Made by a program: the position numbers and the translations under genes. The notes under the pieces were generated by a model. The model searched no databases. It was not told the DNA's origin and was given only the letters and a program-made list of their open reading frames with translations. This document shows, piece after piece, positions 15,605 to 57,060 of a stretch of DNA of 64,000 nt. This DNA is from Argyresthia goedartella (taxonomy: Eukaryota; Arthropoda; Insecta; Lepidoptera; Argyresthiidae), in the NCBI GenBank assembly GCA_949825045.1, contig OX463810.1, forward strand, positions 31,630,201-31,694,200, given 5' to 3'. Numbering within the stretch: the stretch's first letter is position 1; the number at the start of each line of letters is the position of its first letter.

Positions 15605-16929
15605 TACTACTCTGTCAACAAAGTACCGGGAAAAGATCAATAATACACAAAATGTTAGTTATTCATCTAAATTTATTTTATCGCCTTCAAAGTATGCTCC
15701 TTCAGAAACGATACACTTACGCCAACGAATAGTCCAATCATCAAAAGATTTTTAAACGCTTTTTCCGGAATTGAGTTCAGTTCTCATCGCGAATTCTCCT
15801 TTGTCTTCTACCGAATGAAAACGTGTCCCACGAAGTGGTAATTTGAGTTTAGGAAAAAGGAAGAAGTCGGCTGGAGCCATATCTGGTGAATAAGGTTGTT
15901 GCTCGATAGTATTTGTTGAGTTTTTGGTCAAAAATTCGTTTACAATTATGGCCTTGTGCGAAGGCGCATTATCGTGATGCAAAATCCAAGAATTTTCTTT
16001 CCACAAATCTGTCCTTTTTCGCCGAATTTGCTCTCTTAAACGCCGCATTACGCTCAAATAATATTCTTTATTTACCGTTTCACCTTCCGGCAAGAACTCC
16101 GAGTGCACAACACCTCGATAGTCAAAGAAAACAGTCAACATGACTTTAACTTTTGATCGACTTTGGCGTGGTTTTTTCGGTTTCGGTTCAGTTGGGAGGC
16201 GCCACTCCGAAGCCTGTTGACTAGTTTGCATGTCAAACTCGTAAACCCACGTCTCGTCACCAGTAACAATGCGTTTCAAGAATGTTGGGTCGGAATTGAC
16301 TCGTTCTAGCATGTCCTCAGCGACTCTTATGCGATTGAGTTTTTGGAGAAAATTCAGGTCTTTTGGGACCAGCCGAGCAGCAACATGTTTCATACCCAAG
16401 TGATTATTTAAAATGGTGCGGATCGACTCGTGAGACACAGAACGTTCAGCGGCTATCTCTCTCAAATTTGAATGAGGATGTTCAGTCACTAATTCCTTCA
16501 CTTTTGCGACGTTAACTTCAGTTGAAGATGTTGATGGCCTACCAGAGCGAGGCAAATCTTCTATCCCATCTCGACCGCTTTTAAACGTTTTGTACCACTC
16601 ATAAGCACGTGTTTTTGATAAAGTCGATTCACCGTAAGCCTTCTGTAACATTTTCAGTGACTCCGAACACGAAATTCCGTTGGCGATGCAAAATTTAAGA
16701 CAAACTCTTTGTTCGATATTTTTGTCCATAGTGAAATTCGCAGTACGCACTAGATATGATCTAACTAAAAACAGCACTATAATAAATATAAACAACAGAT
16801 GCAACTCAAAATCCGCGCCAAAATGGAAAACAGGTGTGGCAATTGAAAAACAACAAAAAAAAAACAAAATTTTAATTTGGAACCATAGACAAATTATCCA
16901 TTCCCGATACTTTTTTGAATGAAGTTGTA
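15605..16929 (-). mobile_element. mariner element inserted in LINE A
   Basis: Imperfect terminal inverted repeats of about 30 bp: the left reads TACTACTCTGTCAACAAAG, the right on the minus strand TACAACTTCATTCAAAAAAG; both continue into a TAxCGGGAA-type core. TA dinucleotides sit at both edges. The flanking LINE A protein reads across the insertion (ENIIY then RKNL), which gives an empty-site check. The element contains a DD34D transposase gene. Confidence 0.9.
15659..16729 (-). pseudogene. mariner transposase, stop near the C-terminus
   Basis: Starting at Met 16729 (MDKNIEQRVCLKFCIANG), 325 codons are open. There is an HTH N-terminal half with linker ETWxxH-like features, then TGDETWVYEFD, HHDNAPSH and YSPDMAPADFF. 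The second and third aspartates are 34 residues apart, so this is a DD34D mariner. The frame stops at TAA (15752-15754), but a conserved mariner tail (DDWTIRWRKCIVSEGAYFEG) continues in the same frame to 15659. The local sequence around LNSGKSV differs from the usual motif, so paired frameshifts or a simple nonsense change are possible. A longer upstream start (16867) adds 46 hydrophobic residues unlike mariner N-termini and was not used. Probably recently dead. Confidence 0.88.
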
Positions 16930-17410
16930 TATACGCAAGAACCTTACACCATTTTCCAAAATTAGCCAGAGTTGTAATGTTTACCTAAGAAATAATCACA
17001 GACTAGTTGCGCCCCAGTTTAGACTCGCGAAGGTTAGCATTTCTTTTAAGGGTCAGTGCATTCTCAATTACAATAAGATACCTCTGGAGATTTTGAAATT
17101 GCCATTTGAGCAATTTGAAAAGCATGTTAAAACGACTTTGTCGAAAATGGGATTACAATGTTCAAGATTACTTAAATGATCGGACTGTATGGGGTTAATC
17201 TAGCTCAACACAGTCCTTGCTGCTGATAATTTTTTAATTATTTATTCTTGCCTATTATATTTGTATCCGTTAAGCACAAACAATTTTCAAAAGAGATCTA
17301 AAAATCAATATGTGGGAGTGTCTACGTGCTTCTTCTCCCACAGCGGTCCAGTGTAAAGAGGCAAAAAAAATGACGTCTGCTAAGTATATGTAAATATCTA
17401 CGGTAATAAA

Positions 17411-34070: not shown

Positions 34071-34105
34071 TTTGAATATCAAGCAACCTTCGGTTAAGCA
34101 GCAGC

Positions 34106-37100
34106 ATGTCGTCGCCTGTGAAACAGAACCCGTGTGCAGCTACCCTAGAAGTGCAAGCAATCAGCACTTCGTCTAAAATCGCAGACTTCTGGAAGGACAA
34201 GCCCCGGTTATGGTTCGCACATTTTGAAGCAGTAACCACTCCCCAGAAGTTAGGTGACGAATCCAAATTCCACCTAGTCCTTACCAAACTAGCCAAAGAG
34301 GAAATCGAACAAGCCAGTGACATTGTGATTTCCTTATCAGACAGCGGAAAGTACCAGAAGTTAAAAGACAGATTGATTTCGACATATGAAGAATCCCCGC
34401 ATCGCAAATTCCAGAGATTATTCACGGACACCGACCTCGGAGACAGAAAACCGTCACAGTTATTAAGAAAAATCAAGGAGCTTGGGGAAGGTCAAATCAA
34501 CGACGAAACTGCAAAAATGTTTTGGCTAAAACAATTACCGACCTCTTTAACCTCAATACTTTCGGAAAATAAAGAGAAAGGAATTGACGATTTAGCCCAG
34601 ATGGCCGACAATATTTACGAAGTCTCGAGCTTCGAACAAGTTGCTGCGCTAAGCAGGGTCGACGACCCAGTAACGCAACTAACTGCTGAGCTAGCGAAAG
34701 TAAAAATTGAGTTAGCTGCAATTCATAATAACAACAATCGTCGGCAGTTTTATCGCAGTAAGCCATTCTCTAGTTCACGGTCAGGAAGCCCGTTTCCATT
34801 TCGGAGAAACTCGAAGGTATGCTTTTATCATTCACGTTTTGGCAAGAGAGCTTTCAAGTGCGAGGCTCCGTGTTCCTGGAAGCAACAGGGAAAGCTAAAG
34901 CGGGCATGCACTGAGGCGGAGCTGTGTGCTTTTTCACAATTTCATCGCCTATTTATCACAGACAAGAAGACTGGAGAAAAATATTTGATCGATACCGGCG
35001 CGAACATATCTGTACTTAAACGCAAGCTGAAGCATTCCGGGAAAACAGATTACTCATTACATGCTGCCAACGGTTCAAACATCAGCAAATATGGAGAACG
35101 ATGTTGTGCCCTTGATCTCGGGCTTCGAAGAACTTTTAAATGGAACTTCGTGATTGCCGATGTCAATACCTCTACCATTGGAGCAGATTTTCTGGAGCAT
35201 CATGGTTTATGGGTTGATTTACGCAGAAAAAGGTTGATTGACAACACTACCAAACTATCATCCAGAGGTAGAACCATAATAGCAAACCAAGCCACTTTAA
35301 GTACCATTGATGGGAGTCTTGATATCGCAGACTTACTTCGAAGATATCAGCGCATCACCGTACCCACATCTTTGAAGATTAGTCCCAAGCATAACGTTCA
35401 ACATTTCATAGAGACGCAAGGCCCTCCGGTCGCTTGTAGAGCCAGGCCTCTCCCTCCAGAAAGGTACAGGACGGCTCAAAAGGATTTCCAGGACATGATG
35501 GATATGGGAATATGTCGACCGTCAAACAGTTCATGGGCCAGTCCTTTGCATATGGTGAAGAAAACAAATGGTGAATGGAGACCATGTGGAGATTATAGAG
35601 CCCTGAACAATATAACAGTCCCTGACCGGTATCCACTCCCACGGTTACTAGATTTCACTTACATTCTCGAGGGGAAACGCATTTTTAGCAAAATCGATAT
35701 TCGGAAGGCATATCATTGCATACCAATGGCTCCAGAAGATATTTTCAAAACAGCCATCATCACCCCCTTCGGTCTTTTCGAATTTCCGAGAATGACATTT
35801 GGACTTCGGAACGCCGGTCAGACTTTTCAACGATTTATGGACTCAATATTCAGACATCAAATATCTTCACAACGCGGCGGAACATCTAATCAAGAGCCAA
35901 AGGATGAAAACATATCAGATTTCACATTTTGTTTCGTCGACGACATCCTTTGTGCATCAGAAAATGAAGAGCAGCATTGCAAACATTTGGAGATAATTTT
36001 CAAGAAATTAGATGAACATGGTCTTACAATGAATCTGGAAAAATGCGAATTCATGAAGAAGGAAATAGATTTTTTGGGGTATCATGTATCCTGTAACGGG
36101 ATTTCCCCCACTCAAGAAAAACTTGAGGCCATAACCAACTTTCCTAAACCAGAAAAGGTGAACATGTTGCGAAGATTTTTGGGTATGGTTAATTTCTATA
36201 GAAGCAGCATCCCAAAAGCGGCATTTTATCAAGCAGAGTTGAACAAATATTTACATGGCTGCAAGAGGAACGATAAGAGTGTAATTAAATGGACCAAGAC
36301 AGGGGAAGAGTCTTTCGAAAAATGCAAGGAGCTTATGAAAAATTTAGCAAGTTTATCTCACCCTGCTAATAATGCATCCATCTCGCTTATGACTGATGCT
36401 AGCAATGACTGTGTGGGCGCCGTTTTACAACAAAAGGAGGATGGTGAATGGAAACCCCTCGGATTTTTTTCAAAAAACCTGACACAGACGCAACAAAAAT
36501 ATTCTACGTATGATCGAGATCTGTTGGGTATCTACCTAGCTGTGAAGCATTTCCAAAGACTCGTGATAGGACGAGATTTTACTATCTACACAGACCACAA
36601 ACCAATCACTTTCGCATTTTCCAAAAAACCAAATATTGATGACCCACCTCGGAGAATTCGTCAACTAGACTACATATCACAGTATAGCACAGTCATAAGG
36701 CATATTAGCGGATCAGACAACGTGGTTGCAGATGCCTTATCAAGGGTGATCGAGGAGATAATCACTCCTTCAGAAATTGACTTCGAGGAAATGGTCGAAT
36801 TTCAACGCACGGATGCAAATCTTAAAGAGCTTTTCAAGAAATCAAATCTGACATTATCCAAGTTTAGTGTGCCCGGCAGTAATTCCCAGCTATATTGCGA
36901 TACCTCAACCGGGCAACCGAGACCGTATGTTCCTGCAGTATTTCGGAAGACAATTTTCGACGCGATTCATGGTTTGAGTCATCCAGGAAAACGAACCACA
37001 CGAAAAATGATTTAAAAAAGATTTGTTTGGGATAACATGAACAAGGAAATAAACGAGTGGTGTAAAACATGCCTATCATGCCAGAAATGCAAGGTTACTA

Positions 37101-37930
37101 GGCACACTATTTCACCTATCGGCACATTCATGCCCGCTCAGCGTTTTGAGCACGTGCATATAGATATCGTCGGCCCCCTACCTACAAGCCAAGGTTACAG
37201 ATTTCTGCTGACTATGATTGACCGTTGCTCTTCTTGGCCTGAGGCATTTCCCTTGAAAGAGATTACTGCGGAAAAAGTCGCTTCATGTTTATTCCAAGGG
37301 TGGATCTGCAGATTTGGCCCCCCCCTCCGGCTTTCCTCGAACCGTGGAAAACAGTTCGAATCTGGGCTTATTAAATCCTTGGCGAGGTTAATGGGAACGG
37401 AAAAATTACGAACAACAGCCTACCACCCGCAATCCAATGGAATGGTGGAGAGATGGCATCGTTCGCTGAAGGCGTCTCTAATGGCAAGGAACAGTAAGGA
37501 AAATTGGGTAAAAGAATTACCAATCGTCCTTCTTGGCCTAAGAAGTTGTTTACGAGACGACACGGGTTTGAGCGCCGCGGAAATGGTTTATGGAGAAACA
37601 ATAAGGCTCCCCGGGGAATTCTTTGGTGATTCTGGCTTGCGATCAACGTATCCCGACTACGTGCAAGATTTGAAACAACGAATATTAAAAAACTGCTCCG
37701 TTCCGAGGAGAGAGATTCACCAAAACAAGCATTTCGTCCACCCCGAGTTAAGCTCCTGCTCTCACGTTTTCATCAAGAGAGAAGGTGTCGCCAAAGGTCT
37801 GATTCCTCCTTATGAAGGGCCTTACGAAGTTCTACGACGAACGGCGAAATATTTCGTCATCAACAAGAACAACACCGTCGACACATTTTCAATTGATAGA
37901 TTAACCTCTCCTTTCCCGCCGTCAGCATAA
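34106..37930 (+). pseudogene. Gypsy gag-pol polyprotein, one internal stop, altered integrase
   Basis: A single frame of 1274 codons plus stop, broken by one TAA at 37013-37015 between the integrase zinc-binding histidines and cysteines. Order: Gag with zinc array (to about residue 290), protease (YLIDTGANISVL, about 293-304), RT (FVDD site near residue 611), RNase H (MTDASNDCVGAVL; YTDHKPITFAF), integrase (WCKTCLSCQKC; HIDIVGPLP; GMVERWHRSLKA). The second catalytic acidic position of integrase reads Asn (LSSNRGKQFES) where the family has Asp. With the stop, this copy should not be autonomous, although its LTRs say it arrived recently. Described only; no repaired sequence is given. Confidence 0.9.
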
Positions 37931-43918: not shown

Positions 43919-44019
43919 CTGCCTACGAAATTGAAATTAATTGGAATGAACTAAATAAAAGCTCTATTTTTTATTATAATTTTTGCGGTCTTCTTTTATT
44001 TTATGTTGTATATGTAAGG

Positions 44020-44695
44020 AGGGCAGACGGCAATGGAGCGATGGCTCGACGTTTGTATGGAAAGCGCCACCCAAACCGCCACTTAAAAAAAACTAAAAAC
44101 TGCCTCACCAAAAAAAAAACAATCAAATTATCGAACTTGCTCACAAAATTTCACGAGAATCGGTTGAGAAATGCGGCCTGTAGGCGAGAACAGACAGACA
44201 GACAGACTGACAGAAGGACAAACGCATTTTTGGCCAATCTCGAAACTGGGCGCTTCGGCCGCTCGGTCAATAATAACAACGGTCAAGTGCGAGTCAAACT
44301 CACGCACGAAGGGTTCCGCCGGAACTTCCGTACCACCATACAATGGTAGGGATGGTTTGGAGTGAATAGTTTGGATTTTACATAGCAAAATGTTGTTTAC
44401 AAAGTTATTGGTGCGGCCACTTTCACATTCCATGTACGTAACCAGGTGCATTCATAAGTTTGTATGTGTTATTGAAATAATTGTTGTATGGGAGCCCCCT
44501 TAAATATTTATTATATTCTGTTTTTTAGTATTTGTTGTTATAGCGGCAACAAATTTACATCATCTGTGAAAATTTCAACTGTGTAACTATCACGGTTCCT
44601 GAGCGACAGCCTGGTGACAGACAGACGGACGGACAGTCACCGGAGGCTTAGTAATAGGGTCCCGTTTGGCACCCTTCGGGTATGGAACCCTAGAA
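44020..44695. repeat. Dispersed lepidopteran-type repeat
   Basis: Contains CACGAGAATCGGTTGAGAAA, (CAGA)n, AACGGTCAAGTGCGAGTC and, near the right end, GACAGACAGACGGACGGACA and CGGGTATGGAACCCTAGAAA. Its borders match the copy at 23355-23875 and part of 63766-64000. No coding capacity. Confidence 0.65.
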
Positions 44696-44761
44696 ATAAG
44701 GCCTATGCCCAGCAGTGGTTCGATGTAGGCTGAGTATGATGAATAATAATAATAACCTATG

Positions 44762-44817
44762 AGTTTCACCAACTGGACACATGTGTGTCCAGTCTCTTGT
44801 GTCGAGTTGGTGAAGAA
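44762..44817. repeat. 56-bp palindromic sequence
   Basis: TTTCACCAACT ... AGTTGGTGAA outer arms enclose GGACACATGTGTGTCC, itself nearly palindromic. Confidence 0.7.
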
Positions 44818-44826
44818 CCCAATTAA

Positions 44827-45214
44827 ATACCGACGTTTAACCAAGTCATTAATATTCCGTCAGACAAGTGAGTGAACGAAACGTTTAAGGAGTTGTATAA
44901 ACGTTCCTAGGCAACAAGACATATACAATATAAATATTTTGTTATGTGTATTTAAGTTTGTTTTAAGTATTTTTGTTGTTCTCACATGTTCAACCTAACA
45001 CTAAGGATAAAGGGGGCTTCGCTTCGCTCACCCCCTTTACCCTTCACCTAAGCTACCGCAATGTTTTGCCCTGATAAAAGCTGTGCAAATCAGCTGTTGT
45101 CGTGACGCCATCTTGTTTTCCAACACGCCGGCTTTCGGTAAGACAGATTGTTAAACGTTTTCGACGATGCATTATTTAAATCAAAATGCTAGTGACTTGG
45201 TTAAACGTCGGCAT
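44827..45214. mobile_element. TTAA-flanked MITE, 388 bp
   Basis: TTAA at 44823-44826 and 45215-45218. Inverted ends: ATACCGACGTTTAACCAAGT at left and, reading inwards from the right, ATGCCGACGTTTAACCAAGT. A GC-rich internal hairpin (AGGGGGCTTCG ... CGCTCACCCCCTT) lies near 45011-45045. TTAA and short TIRs point to the piggyBac superfamily. No ORF. Confidence 0.85.
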
Positions 45215-45670
45215 TTAATTAACGTTCTAGAGAGTTAGTTAAGCGTCTGATTGAACCAACCAACGGCGTCAGTTACATAATTTTCGCTACGAAAGTGACC
45301 TATATTACATTATTCTTTCGAAATCGCCTTAGCTCCGGATCATAAAAAACACTCTAGAGCCACAATACTGCCTAGGAAGTGTGGGGTTAGAAATAGCTTT
45401 TAATAAAATCTCGATAAATTATCACATAAACATAAATACAGGCACATACATTGCTTCTGGCCTCACTGCCCCATTGCTTCTGTGTCGTGGGAACCAGAAA
45501 CAACGACGTCATTCTCATATAAACATCCAAGACCTGCATGAAATATGCAATACCATGAATAAGAGTGGTAGCGTTACAATCAGGGACACAACCCCTCTAC
45601 CAGCATTAACCCCTTTTACCCCCCTCCTCCTGCTAAAGTCTACTAAATCGAACCCATGCGCCCTACTCAC

Positions 45671-45870
45671 TGATGTGGTCCCGCTGCCTGGCTACCCTCG
45701 CGGCATGCTGGTCGTGCTGGTGCTGCGCGCGTGCCGCATGCGCCTGCGCCTGTGCCGCGTCGTGCTGCGCGGTGTCGCAGCGTGCCGCCGCCGTGGCCAC
45801 CTGCTGCACAGCGCGCGCAGCTTCCGCCTCCAGCGCCGCGCGACGGGACGCGGCTGAGGACGCGCCAGAG
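45671..45870 (-). CDS. SMC6: SMC6 exon 4 (N-terminal coiled coil)
   Basis: 200 nt; one base completes the Asp codon from exon 3, 66 codons, one base left. It starts SGASSAASRRAALEAEAARA and ends VARQRDHI. Ala/Gln/His-rich helix, GC-rich. The acceptor CTTTTAG was preferred to a CCTCAG 17 bp downstream because only the first keeps frame. Donor GTGAGT. Confidence 0.82.
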
Positions 45871-46155
45871 CTAAAAGAGGAGATGTCTTGTGAACGCGAC
45901 CGTTTGTGAGGACCTTCAACACGGCTGCAGCTAGATAAAGGAAGGAGAGTGGATCACCAACAGTTGCAAGTTTGCGAGACTCTCGCAGAACGGCAGTGAG
46001 TAAATTCAACCTCGTCGTATTTACTTCTGACTTGCCATTTTTTTGCAATGTCGGGAAAGACACCTGTAGACGGGCAAATAGTGGAGCCCTGGCGCTTTAC
46101 ACAGTGCATATTGTATGACACCTAGACAACAAGGCTAAGCGAACTACAGACTCAC

Positions 46156-46353
46156 TCAATGTTCTTCATCTCTCGCTCCAAGTCCGTCACCTTCTTCATC
46201 TCCCGGGTCCTGGCGTCGCTGTGCTTGGCGCGAGCCTGCTGCGCGTGCCGCCAGCGCGCCTGCGCGTCTCGCGCGTCCGTCTCCAGCGCGCGCAGCTGCT
46301 GCTCCAGCGCCGAGCGCGCGCGCTGCTTCTCGCCGAGCTGCTGCTCGAGCGTG
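46156..46353 (-). CDS. SMC6: SMC6 exon 3 (N-terminal coiled coil)
   Basis: 198 nt; one base completes Ser from exon 2, 65 codons, two bases left. It starts TLEQQLGEKQRARSALEQQL and ends LEREMKNI. Clear heptads. Acceptor CCGCCAG, donor GTGAGT. The next exon upstream is 9.5 kb away, across the intron that houses the piggyBac gene. Confidence 0.87.
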   Translation of the reverse strand, partial: HARAAARREAARALGAGAAAARAGDGRARRAGALAARAAGSRQAQRRQDPGDEEGDGLGARDEEH

Positions 46354-46738
46354 CTGGCGGACGGAAACGGTCGGTCACAACAACAAACTCTCGAACAAGC
46401 AAACATAACCCCTTGTGTGTGAAAATTCCCGCTCCGGTACTGTCATTCTGGCGCCTGTGTGTGGCGCGACCGTCTCCGGTACTGCTGTAAAGGATTTTAT
46501 TTTGCTTCCGTTGCAGCATTCATGTTAGTCCGATCTCTTTCTAACCTATTAAAATTGCACAAGAAAGAACAGGCTATCTAATTAATGAATGGTTTTATAC
46601 TCTGTGGTCACTGTTTGCACAATAAAACTCACTCAAAGACGCCATCCCAACCGCTACTTCGCGTTTGTGTCTCTCAGTGTTCACATAGATATTTTAATTA
46701 TTTGTGCTAAGTGGAGTGCCTGCTGCTGATTATCCAAT

Positions 46739-49700
46739 ATGCAACGGTAAGTAAAGTTTAATTTTAACTAATACTAATGTCGATTATCTATACCATTGTG
46801 AGTAAAAAACTGTCCAAAACAACTTCACCTCGCTCTTCTCAACGGAACATGATTTTGGTTTTCATCTGAATAGACAAATTTCATTAGAGAAACCGAACGT
46901 GCTTATCATCCTAGGACTCTACATATTGTTTATTTCCTATTGGTTACTATTCAAAACATGTATTCATTCAGAAATATGCGAAATTTCATCAAAACAAATG
47001 CGGGGGAGTCCCAGTACCGCAGACGGAATTTCACACATCGGGCAATTGCGGTTGGTCATGGCCGACACAATGGTGTGGATATGTCGACAAGCTTTTCCGT
47101 GTTTTGATATAATCTTACCTTTTTACTTTTATTTTGTTTTGAGCTTGATTGGTTTGATGTTTTTTAATTAACACGGGTGATTTTTTGCATATTTTAACAA
47201 CAGTGTGTGCATGACGATAGCCGGACAAAAACGAAACATTTTTGTTATTTCGTATATTTGTTCTTTTGTTGATGGGACTTTATTATGGGTCGTAAATAAA
47301 TAATAAATAACAGTGGATTTTTAAAGATCAATAAATAAAATAAGTTCTAGTCATATAAACTTTTCTTTCAAGTCAATAATTTTGCCGAAATTATTTTACC
47401 AAATCAGCCCTAGATTTAAATTATTTCAGGAAATAAAGAAAAAATAATTTTCAAATAAACAATTATGTCAAAGAAACACTCGAATATGTGATTGTATTTT
47501 TAATGTTTCTGTGCAATAAAGAATATGAAAATGAAACACGGGAAAGAGTTAATTTCACAAAATATGTTTGTATTAATTAACGCAATGCACCCTTCACTGA
47601 TTTCATAAAAAATAAATGTTGATGCTGCATACACTGCTCGAGCTTGTTTATGTGTTGTGTGTTTTTATATATTATGGTTTGCACTATTTGGTTGGCATTT
47701 TTTGCATGCTTTTTCTTTCTTTCTGTAAGTGCTGCAAGAACTGGAAGAGGCCGAGGGCGTGTGAACGCGGAGGATGAGAGTGGTGCTGATGGTTTGGGCG
47801 TTCGTGGTGGCGGCGTGGGCAATCGTGGAGCCGCTGTACGATCGCGTGGCAGCGGCGGGCGCACGCGTGGCGGCGGCGCACGAGCGCGGGGCGGAGTCCG
47901 CACTCGCGGTGGGGCCGTGGAGAGGCCATCTGCATCTTCTTTGTAAATAACAGCTTTTACTAACAACTAACTTTACTAATAATTGCATGTTTTCAAATGA
48001 AATAAAACTAATGTAGGATCATGTATTTCAGATCAATGAGAAATATTACCGACTTGCCGGTTCAAGTGCAGTCGCTGGAGCGCAGCCTTCATACAAGGAA
48101 GACCAGAGAGTTGCCTCCCGATGCCAGGCAGTCACCAGGGTAAATATTTTCAAAATATTGTTAGCTCTACCACCCCATATTGATTTTCTTAGGTTTTGGA
48201 CTCTACTTCCAAGGCATAAGGTTAAAATATCAATTTTTATTTGTTTTTAGATCTCTACTACTCTGGTCTTCCTTGTTTGAAGAGCTGCCAATCGAGGTCA
48301 CCCATGAGGAGGGAGACAGGCTTTTAAACATGTCCCCGTGCTCAGCACCTCCGTCACCTTCTGTGTAAGTATTGAAATGAGTACTTTGTGTCTTTAACGT
48401 ATTGATTTAATTGACTTAATTAAAATTTGACACAGGCCTTCCTCATATCATACCATATTTTATGTCCATTGATACCTAATAAACCATAATTAAAATGTTT
48501 TTTTTTTTAGATTTTTAGAATGTGGCGGCAGTAGCGGGGCTTCAACGCCTACCCCACGCAGGGGCCTCAAGAGACCTGAGTGAGTATACTTAATTTCGAG
48601 ATAACTTGCATTGTAGTATTTCTTTATTTATTTACGTAATACAATTTACTATGTTTTTACAGGCAGATAGAAGAAGGTATCTTGCCGCTGTGCCCGCCTC
48701 CCAGGGCAAAACGTTGCCTGTAAGTATATTATTTTTAGATTTTTCCATTATTTCATACTTTTTGAGGATGATAACATTATTATATTTTACAGTATCCCAT
48801 CGTCATCGTCGTCGTCGGCGAACGTGCGTCCTCTTCGTGAGAAAGAAATTGAAAACCTACTCTGTTACGGTAAGTGAAATAAACCTCGCTAAATACCAGG
48901 GTTCGCAGATATATTACGATATATGTTTCAATCAGGGTTCGCTGATAAATATCACGATATATGTTTCAATGGATATATATCAATGGATTTTTATTTTATT
49001 TTTTTATGAAGAAATGGATAAATCTGTCTAAAAATTTGCACAATTTTGCCTCTGCTACCCCGTTTAGGAAGAGGTCCATATGTCATGATATTTGTGTTTG
49101 CTCTGGGCTATAAATTTAGCAGATTGTAAGGGCTTTACTACACAAAAATAACTTATTACCTAAACAAAAATGTATGGGATTTGACGATTTTTTGACTCAG
49201 TCATATCGATTTCGACACTTATTGTTGTATTTTTTTTATTATGACAATATCGTATTGCTTTTCTTTTTTTTATTATGACAATATCGTGTTGCTTTTCTTG
49301 ATAAAAAAATAAACATTAAATTATAAACCTTCATATTTGATGGAAAACATAGTAAGGCTAGCCTCCTGTCTCGCTGATTGGAGTGTTGGCCACTGTTGGC
49401 TCTGAATAACTAGCTAAAAGTGGGCATGATTCTGCTTCTGCCACTCCGTATGGGAAAAGGTGTGACGCTATGTTATAAATGTATCATTTAACCTGTTCAC
49501 TTTGTCAGTATAAACTAATTATGTGATGTTAAAAGATAATTTTTTCATTGTATATATATCTGATAAAAAAATCGGATTTTTACGAAAAAAAAATACAGTC
49601 TTTAAAAGAATATTCCTTTACATGCGTTTACTGAATACCTATATCATAAGTCATAACTCAACGTCAAACCTTTTCCTCCATACCTCAGACGAGTAAGAAT

Positions 49701-51552
49701 AAAAATATATATCTCCATCGGATACGAGTAATACTCACACCTCAGACGTCTAACTCTATTTTAACCATTCAAATCAGGTAGCGAAGAGGACTCCGACGTC
49801 GACAATGACGATGACGATGTGGAAAGGCAAAAGGACCCAAAGGCCACGCGGCGGTTCGAGGACGATGACAATGAAGGGGCGCCAGATGCTCGGGCTCTGG
49901 CTCTGGCTCAGGCTGTGAACCTTGACGGTCTGTCAGTGATCATGCCTGAGCCCCTGCCTGAACCCGAGCCCCTGCCTCGTCCCGAGCCGCAAACTGAGCC
50001 CGAGTTCCAGACCCCGAGCGAAAATATAGATAAATTTAAGTTTAACTGGAGAGAATTCCCAACAACTCAGATTCCACCTGAACTGAGGAGGGAACCCTTC
50101 TCCGAAAATAACTGTGGTCCGCAGGTTTCATGTGCGACCCCATATGATGCATTTACTGCCATATGGGATCGCCCGATTATGGAGCACATTGCAGTGGAGA
50201 CAAACCGGTATGCTCAGCAGACGGCAGCGAGGATGCTGGAGGACGGATCGATCTGTCCCTCCAGCAGAATTACCAAATGGGTTGATACGACGGTAGATGA
50301 GCTCTACGTGTATTTTGCCATAATTCTGGCGGTAGGAGTTGTGGCAAAATCACGGCTAGAGGAATATTGGAATAAATGCGTCGATATCTTCAGCACCCCG
50401 GGGTTCACAAAAGTGATGAGGTATGACCGCTTCCGGCTGCTGAGCACATGTCTCCACTTCGAGGACAATGTAAATTGCGATCCGGCAACAATGACACGAT
50501 CCGAAGCTAAGATTTTTAAGGTACGTCCCATTTTGGACCACCTGAATGCTAAATTCTCACAATTATATAAATTGTCTCAAAACATTGCGCTCGATGAAAG
50601 TCTCACAATGTGGAAGGGCTGGTTAGATATTAACCAGTTCATCCAGAATAAAGCAGCTGGCGTAGGAATAAAAACTTACGAAGTCTGTGAATCAAAGACC
50701 GGCTACTTGTGGCGCTTTGAGGTCCATGCTGGCCACGATGTCACAGACGAACATGAAGTAAGTCCAATAACTGGAATCGTGCCTGCCCTTGTACTCAGAC
50801 TTTTGACTGGTCTCGAGCATAAAGGATATACCATTTGGATGGACAATTTTTACAACTCCCCCGCCCTTGCACGCGAGTTGAAATGCCGGGGTTTCGACTG
50901 TGTGGGGACGCTTCGGACCAACCGCAAGTTCGTTCCGACCAATGTGGCGCAGTTGAAGAAGAATGAAATGGTGGTTGGTCAGGTGGTGGGCTGCACATCA
51001 GGCGATGTAGATATCCTGGTATGGAGAGATAAGAACCGCGTCGCTCTTATCTCCACTTACCACGGACTCTGCTCTGTGAATTGCGGCCAAACACTGAAGC
51101 CGTCCATGGTCCCCGATTATAACGTGTGCATGGGCGGGGTAGACAAGAAAGACCAAATGCTGTCTATGTACCCCCTGGAACGCCGCCGTAACAGGGTCTG
51201 GTACAAGAAGCTGTTTCGAAGACTTTTGAATGCTAGCACACTCAACGCATTCATACTGCACAAAGAAACATCCGCCAATCCAATGGTTCACCGGAGTTTT
51301 CGCAAAACTCTGGTGACACAGTTGATTGAAACCCACGCTCGCATAGTCGAAACACCTGATACACCACACAACGAAACTCTCTACCATATCCCGATACTTT
51401 ACAAGCTCTTGCCAATAGTCAGCGCGAAAAACCGTACCCGCAAAGTGTGTGTGGTCTGCCGCAAACGGTCAATCACATACTGTGAAAAGTGTGAGATTCC
51501 GGTATGTGGCTACACGTGCTTCAGGCCGCACATTAGTTCTCTCCGCCAATAA
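46739..51552 (+). CDS. piggyBac-type transposase gene, 8 exons, 806 residues
   Basis: Coding exons: 46739-46746, 47730-47942, 48032-48139, 48251-48364, 48511-48579, 48663-48719, 48793-48869, 49778-51552. They sum to 2421 nt and join with no frame conflict; introns 1-6 are phase 2 and intron 7 is phase 1; all are GT-AG with good pyrimidine tracts. The Met chosen is the first ATG, 8 nt before donor GTAAGT. Domain order: RG-rich N-terminus (exon 2), Ser/Pro-rich linkers, acidic SEEDSDVDNDDDD (exon 8 start), Pro/Glu repeats, then the piggyBac catalytic fold with Asp488 (ALDESLTMWKG), Asp571 (WMDNFYNS) and Asp671 (MGGVDKKDQ), spaced 83 and 100 as in known piggyBac enzymes, and a C-terminal Cys cluster (CVVCRKRS-TYCEKC). 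Known piggyBac enzymes cut and paste at TTAA. It lies antisense in an SMC6 intron. The element ends were not found, so intact transposon and domesticated gene are both possible. Confidence 0.88.
47730..47942 (+). CDS. piggyBac gene exon 2 (RG-rich region)
   Basis: 213 nt: one base completes Arg3 (CG|T). It reads AARTGRGRGRVNAEDESGAD, then repeated R-G-G-G units (RTRGGGARARGGVRTRGG), ending VERPSASS(L). RG/RGG boxes bind nucleic acid in many eukaryotic proteins and are not standard in piggyBac transposases. Acceptor TTTCTTTCTGTAAG, donor GTAAAT. The opposite strand is also open here, but without splice-compatible neighbours. Confidence 0.8.
48032..48869 (+). CDS. piggyBac gene exons 3-7 (small linker exons)
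   Basis: Five exons: 48032-48139 (SMRNITDLPVQVQSLERSLH...), 48251-48364 (LLLWSSLFEELPIEVTHEEG...), 48511-48579 (FLECGGSSGASTPTPRRGLK...), 48663-48719 (QIEEGILPLCPPPRAKRC), 48793-48869 (IPSSSSSSANVRPLREKEIE then NLLCY). Each of exons 3-7 begins with one base completing the previous codon; exons 3-6 leave two bases and exon 7 leaves one. Introns are 69-146 bp, compact and typical of insect genes. The last exon's LREKEIENLL matches the N-terminal helix seen before the acidic stretch in piggyBac-like proteins. Confidence 0.82.
49778..51552 (+). CDS. piggyBac gene exon 8 (catalytic domain)
   Basis: 1775 nt, two bases complete Gly216, then 590 open codons. It holds the complete DDD catalytic fold and ends CGYTCFRPHISSLRQ with TAA. 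No stop or frameshift. It follows a 908-bp intron that carries two copies of a repeat motif (about 49050 and 49435). Confidence 0.93.
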
Positions 51553-53930
51553 TACTTCACAAAACACATACACTACATACAGTAACACGACACACACACG
51601 CTAGTATTCAAAAGCTCTATCTATTTTCAATTCCATTTAAATTCACAATTTACAATAACAATAACATCCAAATGGTATCGGCATACATTTGTTGTTTTTT
51701 TGTTTCTCTAATTGTCTTTTAGTTTGTCTTTATGTTTTCTTTGTTTCTTATTCCAGCGGAAGATAGACCTTTGCCCACAGTGGTATGAAGACTTTCATAC
51801 TTAATTCAAAGAATAAGCCTTTACCTACAGTGGAATGAGACAGTTATTTAATTGTGAGAATGTATCATACAGGGTAGAGTAGTAGTAGTAGTATAGGCCT
51901 AAACATGCGTCAATTTGTATTTTTGTTTCCTTATATTTGTTATGTGAAAACCTTGTTTGTGTTTTTTTATCTTTTCTATCCTAGGTTTGCTGGAAGAAAT
52001 CTCTTGTTAGAGATAAGCTCACTATATTTTTTTTGTGTAAGAAAGTATCAAGTAAAGTAAAGTACTTTCTGATGCATTATTTTCTCATACCTATATGGGT
52101 ATATTTTTTTCTGTATTTTGACGGAATTTTGCCTCGTTTTATTTTATGTCTTAGGCAATTGGCGCATGTAAGGCCTTTAAAGCTTCATCTGGATCGCAAT
52201 TTATTTGTTCTTTGTAGCCTTAATGTGTATGTCTGCATATCGATAGCAATACCTGTCGAAATTCGCTATTTGACAAGAGCTGATTTTTGTATAATGTTAA
52301 ATCGAAAAAAATACCATTCAGAATACTCTCTCTCTCTCTCTCTCTCTTTTAATACGACAATGCCCTGCTTTGCTGGATTATGCGACTGGGACTGCGAGAT
52401 AAACAATAAGGCTACTTTCTTTAGTTTTTAATGTAGCTTTGTGTTTTTTTTATGCCGCTTGGAACACTTCTTATTAATGTTTTGTATTGTTCACTAATTT
52501 TATCACTAGTAAAATTACAAACCAACAATTTTCCTCCACGATCCCGTATGTTGATATGTATAATTGCTCATATAGTTGTTTTTTTTTATATTACATGGCA
52601 AATAATGAAAATAACATTAATCGATGAACAAATAAACAAAAAAATGTACTTACACAAACAAACATAATAAAATGTGTTAATGTCTTTGTATGCTGTGTAT
52701 AATACCTACCAATTGATTTCATTTTAATTTAATATCGGTGTTGTCTGATTGATTGTGTTTTTATAATTGTAAAATTTGTATTTTTATCTCAAAATAAATT
52801 AATAATATTAATAAAGTTATTTAATTTAATATCTTACATTGCATTTGACCCCGTAAGGCACTATGTCTAATGACAGATTTTGTTGAGCCGTATTAATTTC
52901 ATCTAATTTGAACATATTTTAAATATCCTTTGTGGGCCCATTGTGCCACTGCCACCGGAATGGGAAAAGGCGTTACGCTTTTTATATTAGGTACCTATGT
53001 TATTTTAACAAAATATAATATAAAAGTTTTGTCCCGAGAAAAATCACAAGGCTCATCCATATTATCTTCACCTCCATGGCACAAAAGTGGATGATTATTT
53101 GCAATGTTTATCATCATGGTACTCTAAATATTTGTATGAAAGGTCTTGGGTTTATGTATAAATCCAATACTTTGTTCTATGTAGTTATTAGATAATGTAT
53201 ATTTAATAAGATAACTACTACCTTTCAACCATAACCTAAGATTTACTTACCTACTATTTTTTGTGTCATATTACAGTGGTATTTTAGTAGATTCTCTGCT
53301 CGTTATTTATTTATCTTACAAGTTTGAGGCTTTGGTTACTGATAGCTCATATGCTTTAGTTTCTGTAAACCGAAGAATATTGGTCAATATTGCCAAGGGT
53401 GCTTTGAAACAGTCCTAAATTGTATACCTAATATTGGCTGACATTTATGAGGCCCTATTTTTGTAACTTTTGAAAAAGTTTTATTTTGATAAATAAATGT
53501 ATGAAGACTATATGTGTTTGTGTTTATTAGAGTTCTATACAATATAACGCATTAATAAAATCAAACATTAGGCCTAAATCTTGCTTTGTTATTAAAATAA
53601 TACAGAAATAAGTACAACTTAGGGAGCTTCATATTATGTAACACATATTAGCTGTAATTAAACTGAAATAAAGGCGTTGTGGAAAGGAAAAAGGGTAAAG
53701 AATTCCAATTAGAGTAATATTCTAATTAGAACTAATCTTAATTCTAACTAGAATAGGAGAAATTCATCAAAAACTAAACATCGGCGCTCAGAATTCCTGA
53801 TGTGTGGGATTCCCGCTCCGGTACCCACCGACACGGCGAAAGTTACAAAATGGCCGCCACAGGCGACTGGTTAATAAGCATCACGCCTTTTCCCACGCGG
53901 GGTGGAAGATACAGTTATCCTCACGTTTAG
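51553..53930. other. Downstream of the piggyBac gene: UTR and AT-rich intron
   Basis: Contains the TTTGCTGGAAGAAATCTCTT / AGAGATAAGCTC motif (51988-52020) also seen at 40786, a (TC)n run (52327-52348), AATAAA signals near 52665 and 52790, and a repeat motif (about 52943: TGGGAAAAGGCGTTACGCTT). Right-hand sequence at 53799-53890 has ATTCCCGCTCCGGTAC, also present at 46430 upstream of the gene in the same orientation. No further gene was recognised. Confidence 0.45.
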
Positions 53931-53939
53931 TCAGTTGTT

Positions 53940-54660
53940 TTTTTTTATTCGTTTATTATAAGCAGAAATATTAAATTTACATCTGACAATAGGTCCACGG
54001 AAACCAGTTTGTATGTGGATCCTTATTACGCTAAAATATATGTACAATGTTTAACACATCTTGTTTTTGTTTATGTAAGTACACACAAAATTTTAAAAAT
54101 AAATTAAAAACATATCAGGTATGTATTTTTCATGGTTACGCAACTTAGGTATTGGTTAGGGATAGGAAAGGGAGGAAAAGAATTTTTTAAGTTTCGCTTT
54201 TATGTTTAGCGGAGATATAGTGTTTCTTATGTCAGTGGGTAGTTTGTTTATTAGTCGCGGAATGCAGTAGGCGCGCGTCCGTGTACCGTAGAAATTATTT
54301 GCGCGTGTAGTGGTTAGTTTACCTTGGGCCGCACGACGCGTACCTACGGGATGATCTATTCTGTGCTGTAGGGTATTGTTGAAGAACTCCTCTTTCAGTA
54401 ATGTATATTGAAATTTGGTGTGAATAGGGAGTGTATTACAGTAATGGAATAGTTTAGATGAATTACCTGAATATTCGTATCTCATATTAGGTGGGACAAT
54501 TATTTTAAGAAGTTTGATTTGCAAGGTGTGTATTTGGTCCAGATATGTTTTGTGGGTACGTCCATAGCTGGAGAGGCCATAAGACACTATGGAGTCAAAG
54601 AATGCATTGTATAGCATTATTCGAGTTTTGAATGGTATACGATTTCTAACTACATAAAAA
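53940..54660 (-). pseudogene. LINE 3' fragment (ORF2 C-terminal end)
   Basis: An open frame of 153 codons (54156-54617): FFDSIVSYGLSSYGRTHKTY, DQIHTLQIKLLKIIVPPNMR, then RARAYCIPRLINKLPTDIRN and a stop. It is the thumb/C-terminal part of an RT of the Jockey/CR1/Rex type. 5'-truncated near 54660; the 3' end is near 53940. Confidence 0.7.
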
Positions 54661-55874
54661 TGTTCTTATTCCTTATCAGGGGGTTGTAATGCACACGGGT
54701 TGCGCTGGGGCCAGAAATACAGGTTATTTATACCTAGTTCAGGCTTCAGATGTTCCCAATTTAATATTGTGACATTATTATAAGGACTTAGTTGGTAACT
54801 CTTGTAACTATTTTGATGATGAAATTAAATTATTATTATTATTATTATGCAGCTGGCCCACTAGAGCTGGGCCCCTTCGCCCGCAGGAGATGGGATGGCT
54901 GAATTAGAGGTAATTCTGCACCAGCTGGAGTTGGAGTCCTAGATGTTCGAGGAGGTCTGATGTTGACGATGTACCTCCCAGAATTGTCATCAACTGGACA
55001 AACTACCAGTAGTTTGTCCAGTTATTAATTTCTCTATTATGAACAACTAAAACAACACAACAGAATAACACTCTTGGACAATAGGCAAAGTGTTGTTAAA
55101 TTTGAAATGAAAATATATTTATCTAAACACGTATCATAAACCCTCTTTACTGCGTACAAAAACCGCACGTTACGATCGGCATAATGTTAAACTTCTTGGT
55201 AAAAACTCATTTCTTATCTGAAAAATTACACATTATGACCATTATGTGTAATTTTTCTACACATTATGACCATTATGTGTAATTTTTCTACACATTATGA
55301 CATTCAAATTTCAAACGCCGACGCCCGCCTCGTGCCGCCCCTAGTTTGTCTGTGAAGTTGGTACTGACATTCAAATTTCGAACGCCGACGCCCGAAGTTG
55401 GTGCTACAGAACAAGCTAAACAACTGCAGTGCCACAATGCCGGTCAAACATGCGGTTCCTGAACACATCAAAGAGAGCTTATGATATGTGTGTAGATAAC
55501 CTAGTGTATGTAACTGTACATAATTAGGCATTAAAACTCTCGAGTGATATTATTATGAAACTCTCGAGTATTAATGCCCTCCATTATGTAGCAGTCACAT
55601 AAACTACTATTACATACTTACTTTTCATCACAATGTGTTTCATTTTAACTAATACTGCGTAAAAAATAACAAGGTCCAAACGTTAGCCTAACACTTTTTG
55701 GGTCATAGTTTAAAACTGTCTGACTATAATTATACCACACTTAGCCAGTAGATATTTGAATAGTCTGTTTTGCGTGTCAGGGGGCTAGCCCATGCTTGCT
55801 GCAGCTCTGGGGACAGGAACTTTTCCATCACCATTGCAACACCCCTGTAAAGTTATCTCATTTATCAGACTTAC
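54661..55874. other. Intron sequence with short tandem repeats
   Basis: An (ATT)n run near 54831-54848, three copies of ACACATTATGACCATTATGT at about 55228-55300, and a duplicated GACATTCAAATTTC-AACGCCGACGCCCG (55299-55325 and 55367-55394). No gene seen. Confidence 0.5.
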
Positions 55875-56125
55875 CTTATAACATCACTGTTACTCCCATA
55901 GTTTTGCTCCATTGCATTAAGTTTCTCCATCAGCTTGTCGATCCTGCTCTTCTGCCGGTCATACTGCGCTTGTATTGTGTTGGCTTCAGCCTCGAACTCG
56001 GCGAGCTCGCTCCAATAGAACTCGTTCTGCAGAGCTTGCTTGGTGGCCTCGATCTCGTCGCGAGACTGGAGCTGCTCGTAGCTCGCTTCCCACTTCTTGT
56101 ACTCCTTTTCAAGCTCAAGGCTTGC
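55875..56125 (-). CDS. SMC6: SMC6 exon 2 (N-terminal coiled coil)
   Basis: 251 nt, phase 0 start, two bases left. It reads ASLELEKEYKKWEASYEQLQ, then QNEFYWSELAEFEAEANTIQ and a Lys/Glu-rich coil ending NSDVI. The aromatic W-x-E-L segment corresponds to the conserved E-x-x-W-A-x-V region of SMC6. Acceptor TTTCCAG, donor GTAAGT. Confidence 0.9.
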
Positions 56126-56558
56126 CTGGAAATCGGATCATTTTATTTATTTAGATATGGTACAGCAGAAGCTACTATTGTCTGATACGGTGTAGAGTTC
56201 CATCATGATTTATTCTGATAATTCTGACTGTGAAATTAACTAAACTTGATTATAAGTGTGCTTTGTATTTTAAAATTTATCTCGTGCAGGCGTATCAGTA
56301 GGTTGCGGCTCGGCTCAAACGCTAGCCGCGCTTGAGATGTCAGAGTAAAATAAGCTTTCGGACGTGGTGATGCGGCGCAATCTAGCCTGTACGGGCGGGG
56401 GACCGATTCTGTAGATGTTTAGTGATTATAAGACGCAGCGCATGTGCGAACTAGACTGAGCTTTATTGCTGCGCAGCGATAGTAGCTATATGTTCAGGAG
56501 TGTTTGCAGAGTGATCTTTCTTAACCGCTAGGTACTACAACTTATTCTGTGACAATAC

Positions 56559-56800
56559 CTCGTGTTTCCTATTCCAAATCATAGAGGCTCTCTCACAGTT
56601 CTCAATAGCCCGCACATAATTCTGCTCAGTCTGGTCCAGATTGGTCGCCTTCCGGAATAAGCTGTACTTCTTCTTGGCGTCCGATGCGTGGAAGCTTCTT
56701 GCGTCATCCTGGTTGAGCACCGAGATTGGGTTGTCCACTTGTATGTCATGAGCGAGTATTATTGCATTCACTTCTTCATACTTTGTTGATATTACATCAC
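56559..56800 (-). CDS. SMC6: SMC6 exon 1 in window (Q-loop region)
   Basis: 242 nt, two bases complete a Gly codon, phase 0 end. It reads DVISTKYEEVNAIILAHDIQ, then VDNPISVLNQDDARSFHASD and KKYSLFRKATNLDQTEQNYV. The V-D-N-P-x-S/C-V-L-x-Q Q-loop and the following F-x-x-x-K-A-T-x-L-x-Q-M/T motif are the clearest SMC6 signature in the window. Acceptor ATATTCCAG, donor GTATTG. The upstream Walker A exon(s) were not found up to 64000. Confidence 0.94.
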
Positions 56801-56819
56801 CTGGAATATAGGTAAAACG

Positions 56820-57060
56820 GGTTTGTCCTCTTGGTCTTACTAATGCTCATGGTAGGCACGAGGCACGAGGAGATTCATGTCCACTGCACCAGCGGTTGCC
56901 CGCTGTGGACACTCAGAGCAGATTTGTCTTGCGGCACATAACCTGCGATACCGAGGTCAATTTCGCAACTGTACATACAAGACACATTGCTACATTTACA
57001 AAGATTTAGAGTAAGATAAAAACCAACCCAAATAAGTAATTGTTGCAGATTTTTTTTTTA
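56820..57060. repeat. Dispersed repeat fragment
   Basis: CATGGTAGGCACGAGGCACG to CACCAGCGGTTGCCCGCTGT has the look of a common lepidopteran short repeat with a conserved core. No ORF. Confidence 0.4.

Follow-up and report, generated by a model that had tools for sequence, protein, structure and literature searches.

A very young multi-copy piggyBac-type transposon with a predicted eight-exon transposase gene and mixed TA-centred flanks in Argyresthia goedartella

A stretch of 64,000 nucleotides from the genome of the lepidopteran Argyresthia goedartella (contig OX463810.1, positions 31,630,201 to 31,694,200; hereafter the window) harbours a piggyBac-type transposase frame which a first inspection of the letters without database searches, referred to here as the sequence-only reading, had divided into eight exons and placed inside the gene SMC6. 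This arrangement raises the question of whether the frame constitutes a resident host gene or belongs to a transposon. We consider it likely that the frame encodes the transposase of an autonomous piggyBac-type transposon which has been active very recently, and perhaps still is, and which uses relaxed, TA-centred targeting together with ligation of donor overhangs.

The frame lies within a piggyBac-type element of 7,462 bp (window 46409-53870, forward strand). The genome to which the window belongs (1.109 Gb in 89 contigs) was searched with window positions 46700-51700 (5,001 bp) as nucleotide query, and the 30 places scored out of 2,093 candidates, the window's own included, are all 100% identical to it across the 5,001 bp, introns included. 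An exact 34-mer of the left end of the element occurs 68 times in the genome, the copy in the window included (31 forward, 37 reverse; control 0). In 63 of these 68 copies the right end is present no more than 10 bp from its expected place, the element measuring exactly 7,462 bp in 60 of them, 1 bp less in two and 9 bp more in one, while the other five show no right end near the expected place. End-to-end reading covered 20 of the 67 other copies. Nineteen equal that of the window over the full 7,462 bp, which corresponds to zero substitutions in 141,778 compared bases (19 x 7,462 bp), and the twentieth is devoid of a single T near position 52762. A protein search with the catalytic exon of 590 amino acids (aa), for which 74 matches were scored out of 3,890 candidates, finds this exon open in 68 places, 65 of them at top score and three minimally lower, with stops in none. 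Next follow four matches at 82%, all on contig C28 and each interrupted by a TGA, and then two at 72% (contigs C9 and C10). Copies lacking the exact left end are visible via the protein search only, which holds for one match (C22:926746); the left-end copy at C8:12764060 has no match in the scored protein list.

Among the 74 scored matches none falls between 82% and ~100%, which points to one very recent expansion; recent horizontal transfer would explain this gap. With a mutation rate of ~2.9e-9 per generation, as for Heliconius, the absence of substitutions yields a rough upper limit of 7,000 generations for the age of the expansion. The element appears to have moved very recently and is perhaps still active, and its activity is predicted. 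Near-identical copies without introns, which the sequence-only reading had regarded as speaking against its gene model, were not seen: all 30 scored places retain the whole 5,001-bp stretch with its introns, and a 25-mer across the spliced junction of exons 3 and 4 has 0 exact matches genome-wide, revealing no retro-copied form by this single-junction test. The eight-exon model belongs to a young mobile element and not to a lone host-like gene.

The eight exons proposed before, with seven GT-AG introns of phases 2, 2, 2, 2, 2, 2 and 1, were reproduced exactly and give 806 codons plus stop, without any stop in between (coordinates in Table 1). The earlier description of a split transposase requires a distinction. 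While the gene does contain seven introns, all of them fall within the first 216 codons, upstream of one uninterrupted exon which accommodates the entire catalytic domain. This exon matches the Pfam profile PF13843 (DDE_Tnp_1_7) at 8.5e-85 over profile positions 1-349 of 349, which together with the 806 open codons bears out the claim of an intact piggyBac transposase frame. The same applies to the catalytic triad, D488/D571/D671, whose spacings amount to 83 and 100 as had been stated, and to the C-terminal Cys cluster, present in the translation as CVVC...CEKC...CGYTC...H in line with two other families of this genome. At E values up to 0.001 the only matches in the PDB are piggyBat (9c0f, the best, 3.9e-43) and the transposase of 6x67/6x68, i.e. 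T. ni piggyBac (3.5e-25). About 335 residues precede the Pfam domain, 216 of which stem from exons 1-7; according to an excerpt of PMC9499001, more than 95% of piggyBac proteins possess a disordered stretch before the catalytic domain. A structure prediction of exon 8 without alignment reached a mean pLDDT of 38 and was not used. A scan of IMG/VR returned 21 pattern matches with no relative among them, and Rfam gave no match over window positions 44000-56500.

How far the exon chain exceeds chance can be judged from shuffled sequence. The agreement at seven junctions, which had been called very unlikely to arise by chance, carries no such weight: of 200 dinucleotide-shuffled versions of the upstream 3 kb, 192 still allow seven or more exons to be joined in frame and 171 reach 646 coding bases, and the real upstream sequence permits a maximum of 12 exons and a maximum of 1,090 bases. 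It is the contrast in GC content between exons and introns, and not the compatibility of the junctions, which supports the exons. Exons 2-7 range from 0.49 to 0.69 and the seven introns from 0.19 to 0.31, and 0 of 20,000 random placements matched the observed exon GC; by composition, exons 2-7 appear well supported. With three of four weightings, a chooser blind to frame, using splice score plus GC, recovers five of the six internal exons exactly, and with the fourth it recovers four. It displaces the acceptor of exon 5 by 8 nt and inserts three additional exons, which we take as spurious, into the long introns, and the frame of its own chain is thereby broken. A frame-aware chooser recovers 6, 5, 6 and 4 of the six internal exons at the four weightings, again with extra exons. 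That all six internal exons would by chance be open in the frame required has a probability of ~0.011 (product over open frames). The eight-exon model is probably right, its least certain parts being the 8-nt exon 1 and the boundaries of introns 1 and 7. Since no in-frame ATG is present between exon 1 and exon 3, a translation start in exon 3 would be a live alternative.

The sites at which the element resides were compared in the 63 copies having both ends, five of the 68 being excluded since they show no right end near the expected place. TTAA on both sides is present in 29 copies. Sixteen carry matched 4-mers other than TTAA (8 ATAA, 5 TTAT and one each of TTAC, TTAG and CTAT), a further sixteen have TTAA on one side only (seven on the right, nine on the left), and two are irregular (TTAG/AATA and TTAT/ATAA). 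Hence, 34 of 63 deviate from TTAA/TTAA and 18 are unmatched. With the two irregular copies omitted, the non-TTAA 4-mers comprise 14 ATAA, 12 TTAT, 4 TTAG, 1 TTAC and 1 CTAT, a central TA occurring in 32 of 32. As a control, another piggyBac family of the same genome, with a 624-aa frame, shows TTAA/TTAA in 12 of 13 copies, as against 29 of 63 for the element, and TTAA on one side only in the thirteenth (Fisher p = 0.002). An orientation bias of the non-TTAA sites, hinted at by the first 30 copies, is not shown by the full set (14 ATAA, 12 TTAT). The flanking marks suggest that the choice of landing sites may be looser than that of piggyBac.

The ends themselves are unusual as well. The inverted similarity of the terminal 120 bp reaches a score of 19, attained by 718 of 2000 shuffles, with only CC...GG at the very ends. 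In direct orientation the same 120-bp ends align with a score of 37, attained by 0 of 2000 shuffles, and an identical pair of 16-bp subterminal direct repeats is present. TTAA-flanked inverted repeats had been anticipated around 46.4-53.9 kb. Ends are indeed found nearby (46409 and 53870), but their inverted repeat does not exceed chance and the left flank reads ATAA. A search for inverted repeats running from TTAA to TTAA inside the window gave nothing convincing and was unable to detect 46409-53870, which has no long inverted repeats and starts at ATAA.

A course of events accommodating these data may be sketched as follows. The eight-exon pre-mRNA would be spliced and yield an 806-aa transposase, exons 1-7 contributing an N-terminal extension rich in Arg, Gly, Ser and Pro and exon 8 an acidic stretch, the catalytic domain and the Cys cluster. 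The enzyme would excise the element through TTAA hairpins and insert it at TA-centred 4-mers, mostly TTAA, ATAA and TTAT. The donor-derived 4-nt TTAA overhang would then anneal into the 4-nt target gap and be ligated. A TTAA target would be sealed perfectly, while any other NTAN target would be left with a mismatch on both sides (heteroduplex), the retained donor strand being the top one on the left and the bottom one on the right. Replication without repair would lead to two daughters, one with TTAA/target and one with target/TTAA, which should be equally frequent (nine and seven seen), while trimming and fill-in would lead to target/target (16 seen). The observed ratio of 7:9 is indistinguishable from equality, in agreement with a separation of the heteroduplex strands by replication. 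A model in which the target is retained independently on each side fits best with 0.67 per side and would hide about four more non-TTAA insertions among the 29 TTAA/TTAA copies. The overhang step we infer from the flanks alone. For T. ni piggyBac, an excerpt of PMC7351741 describes that the opened hairpin leaves a 4-nt TTAA overhang at each end and that excision is possible without a TTAA flank. That the element represents a natural active piggyBac lineage with an eight-exon transposase, no terminal inverted repeats, a relaxed NTAN code and fresh insertions which keep the heteroduplex footprint of a synthesis-free integration, with its own TTAA overhangs carried to non-TTAA sites and one or both of them retained, has, in our estimation, about an even chance.

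The arrangement of the gene could also be that of a domesticated, piggyBac-derived host gene residing in the SMC6 intron, similar to the PGBD genes. Its exon/intron structure is gene-like and its triad intact, and PGBD1, PGBD2 and PGBD3 display the same layout, namely several coding exons upstream and the transposase part in a single uninterrupted 3' exon (according to an excerpt of PMC3902484). Yet PGBD1-3 are fixed host genes, and a gene of this type is single-copy and has no element ends, whereas the frame described here is found in 68 near-identical copies with common ends and 4-bp flanks of TTAA type. We therefore consider domestication, which as a single gene had been our early working idea and was ruled out by the copy data, very improbable. 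A search for orthologues at the same SMC6 intron combined with dN/dS, as previously proposed, suits an old resident gene; the insertion in SMC6 is one of the 68 copies. It is unlikely, albeit to a lesser degree, that the element is a passenger moved by the transposase of another family, or that the upstream exons are unused and translation starts at the ATG of exon 3 or elsewhere. Exon 1, at only 8 nt, is weakly supported, the next in-frame ATG lies in exon 3, and the genome contains several other multi-copy piggyBac families; but the inverted repeat of the 624-aa family (CACATTGAATGCCAA), the sole other family whose ends were read, has no counterpart at the ends of the element, and an open catalytic exon is found in 68 places, even if decay is hardly to be expected yet in copies of this age. 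Since an open frame in such young copies reveals little about its use, and since the comparison of ends extends to a single other family, our confidence in an autonomous transposon is somewhat reduced and a passenger gains some weight.

Recombination between copies or later mutation, rather than ligation of overhangs, is a somewhat less remote, though still rather doubtful, source of the mixed flanks. Many identical copies exist, including one inverted pair ~366 bp apart on contig C11. Later mutation is at variance with zero substitutions in 19 x 7,462 bp. Unlinked flanks are at variance with the pairing observed: if the sides were independent, 3.5 matched non-TTAA pairs would be expected and 16 are seen, while ~7.2 unlike non-TTAA pairs would be expected and 2 are seen. 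Several points weigh against our preferred interpretation of an autonomous transposon integrating by overhang ligation. The terminal inverted repeat is not above chance, unlike in known piggyBac elements, splicing is predicted from the sequence, and copies this young would stay open even if the frame were unused. The control is small, comprising 13 copies of a single family; five of 68 copies are absent from the flank count, and the end-to-end comparison covers 20 of the 67 other copies. Part of the non-TTAA flanks could derive from donors whose flank was already altered or from another route of end repair. The two irregular pairs, TTAG/AATA and TTAT/ATAA, are not accounted for by the simplest scheme; a donor carrying TTAT would, however, explain the latter.

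Table 1. Features of the element and of its predicted transposase gene (window coordinates)
Feature	Position	Strand	Remarks
Complete piggyBac-type element	46409..53870	+	left end CCCCTTGTG, right end CGACTGG; limits are where 20 other copies cease matching the window
Left flanking 4-mer ATAA	46405..46408		
Right flanking 4-mer TTAA	53871..53874		mixed pair with left ATAA
Subterminal direct repeat, left copy	46425..46440	+	16 bp, ATTCCCGCTCCGGTAC; identical pair; 16 bp from left end
Subterminal direct repeat, right copy	53809..53824	+	16 bp; 46 bp from right end
Possible initiator TCAGT	46674..46678	+	65 bp upstream of ATG; string match only
Exon 1	46739..46746	+	8 nt, ATG CAA CG; strong donor CG/GTAAGT; least certain exon
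Exon 2	47730..47942	+	Arg/Gly-rich; weak donor TTT/GTAAAT
Exon 3	48032..48139	+	first in-frame ATG after exon 1, alternative start
Exon 4	48251..48364	+	
Exon 5	48511..48579	+	acceptor shifts to 48519 when frame is ignored
Exon 6	48663..48719	+	
Exon 7	48793..48869	+	ends in LREKEIENLLCYG
Exon 8	49778..51552	+	acidic stretch, DDE_Tnp_1_7 catalytic domain (D488, D571, D671), C-terminal Cys cluster, stop

Within the gene, a 22-nt inverted repeat (95%; window 48087-48108 and 48261-48282) connects coding sequence of exon 3 with that of exon 4, and a hairpin spanning intron 3 could result. Short repeats around GGGAAAAGGCGTNACGCT, which resemble a small repeat family, occur in intron 7 (49432-49469), near the 3' end of the element (52961-52984) and, inverted, just outside of it (53877-53914). 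Two copies of the element (L020 and L019) lie in opposite orientation ~366 bp apart at C11:32133471-32148760, the flanks of L020 being the irregular TTAG/AATA. The four relatives at 82%, located at C28:25251307, 25406415, 25554006 and 25697763, are ~150 kb apart in one orientation and perhaps reflect a large repeated segment bearing a dead element with its one TGA. Further piggyBac families of this genome possess open frames of 642, 661, 624, 491 and 488 aa which recur with equal scores at numerous places (116 of 4,734 candidates having been scored), and the genome may have experienced several recent piggyBac bursts.

As the sequence-only reading had claimed, the element is very probably inserted within SMC6, in antisense orientation. 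An exon at 56538-56843 on the minus strand matches residues 159-236 of the SMC6 chain 9lwi_A (9.5e-11). The minus-strand segment 23921-24148 matches the SMC6 chain 5mg8_B at 2.3e-4 and a complement receptor chain slightly better, at 1.8e-4, while the Pfam SMC hinge remained below cut-off there; 55871-56134 gave no SMC6 match. We infer neighbouring coiled-coil exons of SMC6. The left flank of the element lies 49 bp from the inferred SMC6 acceptor at 46354, near enough for a possible effect on SMC6 splicing which would be worth testing. Just left of the window on contig C4, nine open frames with the same SMC-type segment, mostly 134 bp apart, are present on the minus strand (L010:1137-2752). This signature/Walker B exon, named by eye and presumably that of SMC6, looks tandemly multiplied. 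Elsewhere in the window, long open frames at 34076-37930 and 15752-16984 resemble, by eye, a retrotransposon polyprotein and a mariner-type transposase.

The identical copies make the element an obvious candidate for a functional natural piggyBac, whose spliced N-terminal extension could regulate activity or restrict it by tissue. Its 63 insertions offer an in-genome test of piggyBac joining, since ligation of donor overhangs without DNA synthesis would be expected to leave mixed flanks. If our interpretation is true, a transposase with looser target choice and without inverted repeats would be helpful in identifying the regions of the protein responsible for the strictness towards TTAA. The locus further cautions against taking several exons in a transposase frame as proof of domestication.

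A partial literature survey met no report of an active piggyBac with seven introns or of mixed flanks, which is weak evidence of absence. T. ni piggyBac has a 13-bp terminal inverted repeat. The element resembles it in its DDD catalytic domain (6x67/6x68), its C-terminal Cys cluster and TTAA as its commonest flank, and differs in the 34 of 63 copies which are not TTAA/TTAA, in the lack of an above-chance inverted repeat, in its seven introns and in protein length (806 residues compared with 594 in the T. ni PDB chain). In cells, piggyBac integrates overwhelmingly at TTAA (excerpt of PMC7351741). For piggyBat, the best PDB match, non-TTAA insertions amount to 7.2% in a bat assay, 2.4% and 7.2% being the cell-assay rates quoted in an excerpt of PMC3849761. 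Within the same genome, the 624-aa family (L005-L008) belongs to the same superfamily, with 33% identity over 386 residues. Its 2,577-bp element, however, contains an uninterrupted 624-aa frame and carries, by eye, the perfect 15-bp inverted repeat cited above at both ends. Pokey of Daphnia, a piggyBac element, comes close in two respects: according to the same excerpt of PMC3849761, splicing of its intron was observed by RT-PCR and some of its target duplications are TTAT/ATAA. Pokey, though, possesses one intron of 68-84 bp and ~12% non-TTAA sites (Table 2 of that source), whereas the element described here has seven introns, non-TTAA flanks on at least one side in 34 of 63 copies and matched non-TTAA flanks in 16 of 63.

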